Source: Rhodopirellula europaea 6C
Lineage (GTDB): Bacteria; Planctomycetota; Planctomycetia; Pirellulales; Pirellulaceae
Length of the DNA: 64,000 nt
Assembly (NCBI RefSeq): GCF_000338295.1
Contig: NZ_ANMO01000028.1
Span: forward strand, 1 to 64,000
Direction: 5' to 3'
Position 1 is the stretch's first letter. Every line of letters starts with the position of its first letter. Of the stretch, positions 55,500 to 58,665 are shown in pieces. The translations under genes and the position numbers were made by a program. Under the pieces are notes generated by a model. The model was not told the origin of the DNA and searched no databases. It saw only the letters and a list, made by a program, of their open reading frames with translations.

Positions 55500-56600
55500 A
55501 TGGTTGCTATGGCTCGTTATTGGTTGGTATGTCTCGGATTGGTTCTAGTTGTTGGATGCAGCAAATCTGATTCCAGTTCCTCGGTGAAACCACAATCAGG
55601 TTCAAATGCGGTCGCGGATGCATCGGCGGATGCGACTGGTTTCCCGCGTGAGTGTGGCAACTACACCGTTTTAGGCATTTTGACGGACAACCAAGACAAC
55701 TCGAAAGCGAAGGAAAATGCTGAAACGACTTTGCTGCGTCATCCGGATGTGGCTTGTTTGGTCGGATTGTGGAGCCAAAACACACCGATGATTTTGGCCG
55801 GTCTTCGAAGCAGCGATGCAATCGGAAAAGTCGCGGTGGTTGGTTTTGATGAGCACCCGGACACTTTGGCGGGAATCCGTGACCAATCGGTTTACGGGAC
55901 GATCGTGCAGCAACCCTACGCATTCGGTTATCGCAGCGTGCAGTGGCTGACGACGATGGCGAAAGGCGGCGAAGTCGAGGTCCCGGAGTCGGGAATGATC
56001 ATCATCCCTCACCGATCGATCACCGGTGCAAACGTCAACGAGTTTGCCGCAGACATCGATGCGATCAAGTCAGGCAAAGGACCAATCTTGTCCGGCGACG
56101 AGCAGATCGACGGATCGGGAATTCGAGTGGCCTACATCACCAATTCGTTGGATCCGTTTTGGACTTTGGCCGATGCCGGTTGCAAGCGTGCGGCGGAGCA
56201 ATTCGGGTGCGAAGTTGATGTGCAAATGCCTTCGAGCGGTTCCATTGAAGAGCAAAAGCGATTCTTGGAATCCAATGTCGCGGCAAAGGTGGATGGGATC
56301 GCGATCAGCCCAATCGATCCTGAAAACCAAGTCGGCATGATCAACGATGCGTGCGAAGTCACCACGGTGATTTGTCAGGACAGCGATGCACCGGCTTCTC
56401 GTCGCAAGTTCTATCTCGGAACGAGCAACTACTTGGCCGGACGTGCCGCCGGCAAGTTGATTCAAGAAGCCATTCCGGAGGGCGGCGAAGTGATGCTGTT
56501 CGTCGGGAAGATGGAAGTGCTCAATGCCCAAGAACGCAGTCAGGGCATCATGGATGAGCTGGCGGGGAAGCCAATTCCGGCGATCTTACAAGGCAACTGA
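55500..56600 (+). CDS. Substrate-binding lipoprotein with permuted lobe order
   Basis: A 366-residue lipoprotein (signal ARYWLVCLGLVLVVGC, lipid Cys20). It resembles the sugar-binding (RbsB/Peripla_BP_4) family, but in reverse order. Residues ~52-185 match what is normally the C-terminal half: GNYTVLGILTDNQDNSKAKE, CLVGLWSQNTP, VAVVGFDEHPDTLAGIRD and YGTIVQQPYAFGYRSVQWL. Residues ~207-363 match what is normally the N-terminal half: IRVAYITNSLDPFWTLADAG, VQMPSSGSIEEQKRFLE, VDGIAISPIDPENQVGM, CQDSDAPASRRKFYLG and FVGKMEVLNAQERSQGIMDE. Both junctions look like clean linkers. No permease or ATPase genes adjoin, so the ligand is unknown. A tandem-duplication artefact is the main alternative. Confidence 0.82.
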   Translation: MVAMARYWLVCLGLVLVVGCSKSDSSSSVKPQSGSNAVADASADATGFPRECGNYTVLGILTDNQDNSKAKENAETTLLRHPDVACLVGLWSQNTPMILAGLRSSDAIGKVAVVGFDEHPDTLAGIRDQSVYGTIVQQPYAFGYRSVQWLTTMAKGGEVEVPESGMIIIPHRSITGANVNEFAADIDAIKSGKGPILSGDEQIDGSGIRVAYITNSLDPFWTLADAGCKRAAEQFGCEVDVQMPSSGSIEEQKRFLESNVAAKVDGIAISPIDPENQVGMINDACEVTTVICQDSDAPASRRKFYLGTSNYLAGRAAGKLIQEAIPEGGEVMLFVGKMEVLNAQERSQGIMDELAGKPIPAILQGN

Positions 56601-57143: not shown

Positions 57144-57902
57144 TCAGCGGCCTTCGCGAAGGCGGTAGCCCAGAAAGTTGTCCAGCTCCGCTTCTTTCTC
57201 AATCGCCTGGACCGTCCGTTCGATGTCGTATTCGACTCGTCGAAACATCACCACATCTGGTTCCACAATCGCGTAGCAACTGCGCGGGTCGCCATCACGC
57301 GGTTGGCCGACACTGCCGACGTTGATCATCAATTTTGAATTGGGATCGGCCAGGGAATATCCGGTTCCGGTGTCAGCGGGACGGACGAAGCGTTGCTCCA
57401 TCGTGAACACACCGGGGACGTGGGTGTGCCCTTGGAAGCAAACTCGCGGGACCAACGAAAACAGCTTTTCCATTTTCTTTGTGTTCTGAGCGTCTTCGGG
57501 AAAGACGTATTCGTTCGTGGGTCCGCGCGGTGAACCATGAACAAACAGCCAATGGTCTTCACGAACGGTTCGAGGCAAGGCGCACAGGTATTCGATTCGT
57601 TTGCGGCTGGCTCCCGGATCGTCGCCAGTTTCTTCGAGCTGGCTGCGGGTCCAGAAGATTGCTTGTTCGGCCGCGACATTGAAGCCTTCCGGATCGAACA
57701 GCGAACTGCTGTCGTGATTCCCCAAGACGCAAAAGTCGAAACCCATCACGGTATCGAGGCAGGCACACGGTTCTGGGCCGTAACCGACCACATCGCCCAA
57801 ACAGACGATACGGTCGACCTTTTGCGATTCAACGTCCGCGAGGACGGCTTCGAGCGCGGACAGGTTTCCGTGGATGTCGCTAAGAATGGCTGTACGTGTC
57901 AC
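57144..57902 (-). CDS. Calcineurin-like metallophosphoesterase (second of twin genes)
   Basis: A 252-residue phosphoesterase with all metal-binding blocks: AILSDIHGNLSALEAVL, IVCLGDVVGYGPEPC, FCVLGNHDSSSL, LFVHGSPRGPTNEYVF, FQGHTHVPGVF, and a closing GSVGQPRDGDPRSCYAI. It starts four bases after the stop of its upstream paralogue. Substrate unknown; relatives hydrolyse phosphodiesters or nucleotides. Confidence 0.87.
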   Translation of the reverse strand: MTRTAILSDIHGNLSALEAVLADVESQKVDRIVCLGDVVGYGPEPCACLDTVMGFDFCVLGNHDSSSLFDPEGFNVAAEQAIFWTRSQLEETGDDPGASRKRIEYLCALPRTVREDHWLFVHGSPRGPTNEYVFPEDAQNTKKMEKLFSLVPRVCFQGHTHVPGVFTMEQRFVRPADTGTGYSLADPNSKLMINVGSVGQPRDGDPRSCYAIVEPDVVMFRRVEYDIERTVQAIEKEAELDNFLGYRLREGR

Positions 57903-57906
57903 CCGA

Positions 57907-58665
57907 TCAATGTCCTCGCTTCAGTCGATCGCCGAGGGCATCGTCCAGGTCGGGTTGAGCGTAAATCTTTTGAGCCGTCTTCTCGAAGTCGTATTCGACG
58001 CGGCGGTAGGTCACCGTCTTCGCGTCGGTATCCAAGATGATATAGCACGATTGATTGTTCTCGTCTCGCGGCTGGCCAACACTGCCGACGTTGATCATCA
58101 GCTTGTTGTTGCCCAACGCGTAGGTGTGGTCGCATTCGTCCGGTGTGACGAATTCACATTCGGTGGTGAACACGCCCGGCAGGTGGGTGTGGCCCATGAA
58201 GCAGTATTGATCGATCTTGCCAAACAAGATTTCCATCTTGCGAGCATCGTACATGTATTCGGGGAAGACGTATTCGTTGGTCGGGTCGCGAGGCGAACCG
58301 TGGACGAACTTGAATTCGCCGTCGTCGATGAATCGCGGCAGTTCGCCGAGGAAGTCCCACCGAGCGTTGACTTGTGCGGGACCGCCTTTGCCACTGTCCA
58401 GCTCGTCGCGAGTCCAGTAGATCGCTCGGAGTGCCATTGGGTTGAAGCCATCCGGATCAAACAGGGCCGCTTGGTCGTGGTTGCCAAGAATGGTGTGTTT
58501 GCACCGACGCATCACCAGATCCAGGCACTCGCACGGATTGGGGCCGTAGCCGATGATGTCACCCAGGCATATGACTTCTTGGACACCGACTGAGTCGATA
58601 TCTTCCAGAACCGCTTGCAGCGCTTCGAGGTTCCCGTGGATGTCGCTGATCAACGCTCGCTTCAC
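57907..58665 (-). CDS. Calcineurin-like metallophosphoesterase (first of twin genes)
   Basis: A 252-residue paralogue of the downstream gene, of identical length. Blocks: ALISDIHGNLEALQAVL, VICLGDIIGYGPNPC, HTILGNHDQAALF, KFVHGSPRDPTNEYVF, FMGHTHLPGVF, LMINVGSVGQPRDENNQSCY. Divergent from tsaB with 108 bases between. The pair presumably arose by tandem duplication and may have split substrates. Confidence 0.87.
   Translation of the reverse strand: MKRALISDIHGNLEALQAVLEDIDSVGVQEVICLGDIIGYGPNPCECLDLVMRRCKHTILGNHDQAALFDPDGFNPMALRAIYWTRDELDSGKGGPAQVNARWDFLGELPRFIDDGEFKFVHGSPRDPTNEYVFPEYMYDARKMEILFGKIDQYCFMGHTHLPGVFTTECEFVTPDECDHTYALGNNKLMINVGSVGQPRDENNQSCYIILDTDAKTVTYRRVEYDFEKTAQKIYAQPDLDDALGDRLKRGH

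Follow-up and report, generated by a model that had tools for sequence, protein, structure and literature searches.

The gene at 55500..56600 on the forward strand of the analysed window (the first 64,000 nucleotides of contig NZ_ANMO01000028.1 of Rhodopirellula europaea 6C, assembly GCF_000338295.1) raises the question of whether a substrate-binding protein (SBP) can carry its two halves in reversed order and still work, and of how often such a change has occurred. The first-pass annotation, made from the sequence alone, had proposed a permuted binding lipoprotein that arose in one event by gene duplication and loss of both outer halves. Our analysis confirms this open reading frame (ORF) as coding for a lipoprotein with a Peripla_BP_4 match in swapped order. 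We favour, with a probability of roughly 85%, a lipid-anchored Type I (CUT2-like) sugar-binding protein which is circularly permuted, should act as a two-lobed flytrap, likely feeds an ATP-binding cassette (ABC) transporter and belongs to a family whose chain order has changed recurrently.

The halves of the binding domain are swapped

The ORF begins with an ATG and codes for 366 amino acids plus a stop codon. Against PF13407 (Peripla_BP_4), the protein scored 166.8 bits (curated cut-off 35.1; E 9e-49 for the whole protein) in two stretches, the best of which matches residues 218-358 to profile positions 10-151. In the genome profile search, profile positions 150-257, normally the second half, were placed first (55653..55970, +) and positions 10-155, normally the first half, second (56151..56585, +), both stretches exceeding the curated cut-off. 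A collinear order of the profile was thus not found, nor was any full-length alignment in normal order obtained. A hidden Markov model (HMM) of 307 positions, built from normal-order relatives, covered residues 42-189 and 209-358 (ORF coordinates minus a 12-residue ORF offset), in agreement with the limits 52-185 and 207-363 of the first-pass annotation, whose claim of reversed halves was borne out.

Ahead of the two halves, as had also been proposed, a putative signal peptide and lipobox (residues 1-20; 55500..55559, +) were read from the sequence, with Cys20 as the predicted lipidated residue; this cysteine is invariant in two alignments of 10 and 16 rows (A1 and A3). The following residues 21-47 (55560..55640, +), which lead from the lipid anchor to the first strand, are probably a disordered spacer, as judged from model confidence and fast evolution. 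Residues 190-208 (56067..56123, +), the gap between the two HMM stretches, would be the linker of about 19 residues by which the ancestral C-terminal end was joined to the ancestral N-terminal start. The new C-terminal end (residues 359-366; 56574..56597, +), located by the HMM-to-residue map and alignments, sits in the loop leading, in normal-order relatives, into the strand which is now N-terminal. The new ends would have arisen in a C-lobe loop, at about HMM 150-162, and the lipid anchor would for this reason be carried by the C-lobe and not by the N-lobe.

The permuted chain is compatible with a complete fold

The crystal structure of the orthologue of Rhodopirellula baltica SH 1 (PDB 5er3, ABC transporter solute-binding protein, released in 2015) shows the same protein in the same order: it was aligned end to end with residues 26-366 by phmmer against the PDB, and the structural match has 97% identity. 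The closest normal-order solved relatives by sequence are those of the Thermotoga maritima glucose-binding protein (2h3h, 2qvc, 3c6q), to which both halves align. Unlike the window protein, this protein has the normal order; its structure aligns over about half only, and with phmmer 2qvc was aligned in two swapped pieces, residues 209-358 corresponding to its 4-154 and residues 56-157 to its 156-257. The AlphaFold model gave no sign of a broken fold (mean predicted local distance difference test score, pLDDT, 86.6; predicted template modelling score, pTM, 0.81), residues 1-46 having a pLDDT under 50. In a fold search the model matched 5er3 over 317 residues and either half separately matched normal-order members, which points to a predicted Type I periplasmic-binding fold. 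We expect the protein to fold into, and to function as, a normal Venus flytrap with two lobes.

Both halves are under purifying selection. The ratio of nonsynonymous to synonymous substitution rates (dN/dS) of the mature protein was 0.034-0.053 in the four of five genus relatives for which it was defined, and comparably low across both halves; the spacer after the lipid anchor evolved faster (0.16-0.58 in five pairs). Among proteins cut at the same site as the window protein (site A, below), invariant residues include N215, F220, W221, D294-P298, R302, N94, D117 and Q137, and they match invariant counterparts in proteins cut at site B. We take them to be the lining of the sugar pocket in ribose-binding-type proteins. 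The structure of 5er3, the model, the low dN/dS and the location of relatives beside ABC genes thus support the earlier proposal of a complete and functional permutant.

Cut sites and distribution

Cut sites were mapped with the 307-position HMM in 66 distinct rearranged ORFs. Fifty-one, the window gene included, are cut at site A, where the first stretch starts at HMM 149-182 and the last ends at 146-165; the extreme starts (172 and 182) belong to loci L121 and L122, the latter truncated by a contig end. Normal relatives have at site A a loop that varies in length. Site B (start at HMM 218-224, end at 220-223) was found in 12 ORFs, and site C (start at HMM 122, end at 117, roughly at the first interlobe hinge) in one, L126, known from a single contig of a metagenome-assembled genome (MAG). 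L142:4677-5723, likewise from a single MAG contig (Opitutia), has the order 157-271, 2-155, 273-305, a transposition and not a plain circular permutation, and the remaining ORF, a distant protein at L104, is rearranged near site B. In every rearranged version read, the lipidated N-terminus is followed by C-lobe sequence, if the lobes are delimited by the HMM-to-residue map and the known topology of Type I proteins. Long acidic KEEAP-like repeats follow the new C-terminus in some site-A relatives (e.g. L011:1348-2757).

A spanning match to a junction query was obtained from 46 of the 241 family genomes and, at genus level, from 7 of 13, so that the window order extends to other planctomycete genomes; gene order was read at HMM level in 42 of the 46 (G420, G421, G422 and G423 were left out). 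At this level, 186 SBP ORF rows, duplicates included, comprised 108 permuted and 78 non-permuted ones. The junction alignment, run against a genome collection, yielded 80 named loci, the best 80 of 566 confirmed stretches and therefore a mix that gives no prevalence estimate: 24 of class A, 8 of B, 1 of C, 1 of D and 46 with normal genes only. The 34 rearranged loci among these include Phycisphaeraceae, Fimbriimonadaceae (Armatimonadota), an Omnitrophota MAG and Verrucomicrobiota MAGs. When 392 genomes across the phylum were searched for N-lobe cuts with a junction query of 115 residues, 12 spanning matches and no new cut class were found, all 12 in genomes already known for sites A and B; this query favours L077-like sequences, and rare or distant N-lobe cuts may escape it.

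Several of these relatives are MAG contigs, including the single ones of L126 and L142, and a swapped order could in principle come from an assembly or gene-calling error fusing two tandem copies. Against such an artefact, 5er3 has the window order, and the identical order occurs in the one-contig genome G537, whose sequence (L071) matches that of 5er3 as compared by eye, and in many other genomes. A strict lipobox pattern moreover precedes the permuted core in 57 of the 66 ORFs, and eight of the other nine carry a signal-like stretch and a cysteine by eye, the last being truncated at a contig end; the proteins are thus predicted to be exported lipoproteins, as expected of the binding protein of a CUT2-type ABC importer. 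For the window gene the structure and the many genomes with the same order rule out an artefact, including a joining of two copies by the assembly, and its probability is negligible.

The order of the chain changed repeatedly

A maximum-likelihood SBP tree was computed on canonical columns from 138 distinct rows thinned to 106, L104 and L152 being dropped for short coverage. Eleven changes are needed on this tree for five order states, and its well-supported (starred) branches force at least six changes between normal and rearranged order. A single clade was rejected for the rearranged rows as a whole (p 2.8e-57), for those of site A (p 4.6e-102) and for those of site B (p 0.008), values which are indicative, the groups having been chosen after the tree was seen. 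Trees of the two halves required 12 and 10 changes, in line with the full tree, and with few starred branches the forced changes were 2 and 1. Order has thus changed repeatedly in the family of the window gene and in related SBP genes, and the single permutation event of the first-pass annotation gives way to several. The window clade itself comprises 21 rows and forms one permutation lineage (100/100, starred). A fusion of two unrelated halves was also considered and was rejected, the N-half and C-half trees placing the window gene in the identical starred 21-row group.

That many site-A lineages (L134, L123/L127, L016/L130, L124, L141, L132/L144) branch close to the base, together with a rooting that depends on long-branch outgroups, would be in agreement with a single ancient permutation followed by reversions to normal order. 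However, two well-populated cut sites, a third one (L126) and the transposed order of L142 exceed one event, and L125 and L128 (site A), L126 (site C) and a Pirellulaceae site-B clade are placed well away from the base, amid rows of normal order. L125 is sister to the normal-order L178 in both the SBP tree (99/89) and the ATPase tree (99), each time on a starred branch. For L142 the two trees differ: its ATPase groups with that of the normal-order L181 (96, starred), its SBP with site-B rows (94/86, unstarred). A single ancient permutation is regarded as unlikely, and recurrence would hold in either case, since a reversion is another permutation.

Gene context and putative transporter partner

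An ABC ATPase gene directly adjoins 17 of the 29 permuted loci examined, which indicates that permuted SBPs occupy ordinary transporter operons. The ATPase and permease genes of a CUT2-type importer were not found next to the window gene. On another contig of the same genome (G000:C14), an ATPase (53%) and a permease (45% over 3-441) of the same type are encoded as a pair, with no SBP match within 14 kb. In G433 and G528, one contig carries both the SBP and the ABC pair, with about 20 kb between them, and the C14 ATPase groups in the ATPase tree with those of L076 and L078 (Shimodaira-Hasegawa-like approximate likelihood ratio test, 90). The window SBP would most likely feed an ABC transporter, and the C14 pair is its likely, provisional partner.

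The orphan state of the gene could also be explained if the permuted SBP had become a sensor or scavenging protein which no longer serves an ABC transporter. The genus clade of the window has no neighbouring ABC gene, and such SBPs can serve receptors, XylFII-LytS structures being among the fold matches. The frequent adjacency of the ATPase at permuted loci, the retention in the own genome of an SBP-less ATPase-permease pair of that family and the spacing in G433 and G528, as predicted for a split operon, argue against this role, which we judge quite improbable.

Adjoining the SBP gene, 57144-58665 (-) holds two related neighbouring genes whose proteins are 52% identical, a probable tandem duplication; judged by motif, the products are putative metallophosphatases.

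A second permuted family and the extent of the phenomenon

When 35 genomes of the class were scanned with PF13407, swapped pairs were detected in 11, including six site-A genomes; in the other five (G377, G633, G635, G637 and G639) a different SBP is cut near profile 205-209. BLAST with the window protein matched two of these five genomes, at about 26-27% identity. An ABC ATPase lies immediately downstream in four of five, and none at L255, near a contig end. Loci L254, L255, L256, L257 and L104 belong to a distant SBP family of another planctomycete family, permuted near site B. This second family may have been permuted independently of the first, a suggestion made with reserve.

More broadly, and as a tentative proposal that we hold to be possible but not probable, the chain order of this family of binding proteins would be evolutionarily fluid: one and the same transporter gene would have undergone several circular permutations, perhaps about ten, with two or three cut sites, and a single transposition, across Planctomycetota, Verrucomicrobiota, Armatimonadota and Omnitrophota, in addition to the second family. 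The move of the anchor from N-lobe to C-lobe in all rearranged versions seen would then suggest selection for the position of the tether and not mere tolerance of the fold. The simplest genetic route would be a tandem duplication with fusion in frame and trimming, a course that PMC3320104 (available part) counts among its two main models of permutation.

Several points weigh against the favoured interpretation or against parts of the wider proposal. In the window clade (10 loci, L071-L075 and L106-L110), no ABC genes lie within 14 kb of the SBP gene. The ATPase tree is unlike the SBP tree, ATPases of the window clade being scattered (L077, L079-L081, L121/122/129, and L218 apart from L211); these several places make re-pairing of SBP and ATPase or transfer likely, which weakens the partner assignment and keeps it provisional. 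The outgroup rows have very long branches and the root is insecure, so that gain and reversion are inseparable near the base and in some of the switches a permuted gene could have returned to the normal order. Our queries need a largely contiguous N-lobe, N-lobe cuts are therefore under-sampled, and the case for selection on anchor position is weakened accordingly. Finally, no doubled half or in-frame tandem copy, as an intermediate of duplication, was found among the 186 SBP ORF rows, and the duplication with loss of outer halves put forward by the first-pass annotation stays a plausible hypothesis. At L184:1798-4261 (Phycisphaeraceae MAG), the sole locus with two side-by-side SBP genes among the named loci (best 80 of 566), the adjacent genes are divergent, of normal order and from different regions of the tree.

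Relation to known systems and meaning

Working permuted sugar-binding lipoproteins are already known. TpMglB-2 (Tp0684) of Treponema pallidum, termed 'Type Ic / Cluster Bc', is described in the available part of PMC4990184 as a natural circular permutant of a Type I sugar-binding lipoprotein for which glucose binding and closure are reported, and permuted SBPs can therefore work. It shares with the window protein, as judged for the latter from PF13407 order, PDB alignments and fold, the character of a circularly permuted Type I binding protein. As far as that part of the paper goes, TpMglB-2 is cut inside the N-lobe and has a fourth lobe crossover, in contrast to the C-lobe cut of the window protein, which lies after the first interlobe hinge (about HMM 118-122, from the known topology of the family). 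Recurrent permutation with several permuted orders within one family is likewise described for DNA methyltransferases and other families (PMC3320104, available part), whereas the recurrence reported here concerns a transporter binding protein. The PDB has included the site-A structure since 2015; no paper treating 5ER3 as this structure was found in the open-licence literature, nor one on permuted binding proteins in planctomycetes, a result that is weak as evidence of absence. The second and third cut sites and, above all, the recurrence seem unreported in the literature searched.

These permuted genes are a warning that annotation by order-bound profiles splits or weakens such genes, and they are useful for the permutation of binding proteins into biosensors. 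Natural circular permutants are usually isolated curiosities; here several independent permutations are found with the link to transporter operons retained. The family is thus a natural experiment on the origin of a change of order, on the flytrap loops that tolerate new ends and on the role of the anchored lobe in docking.
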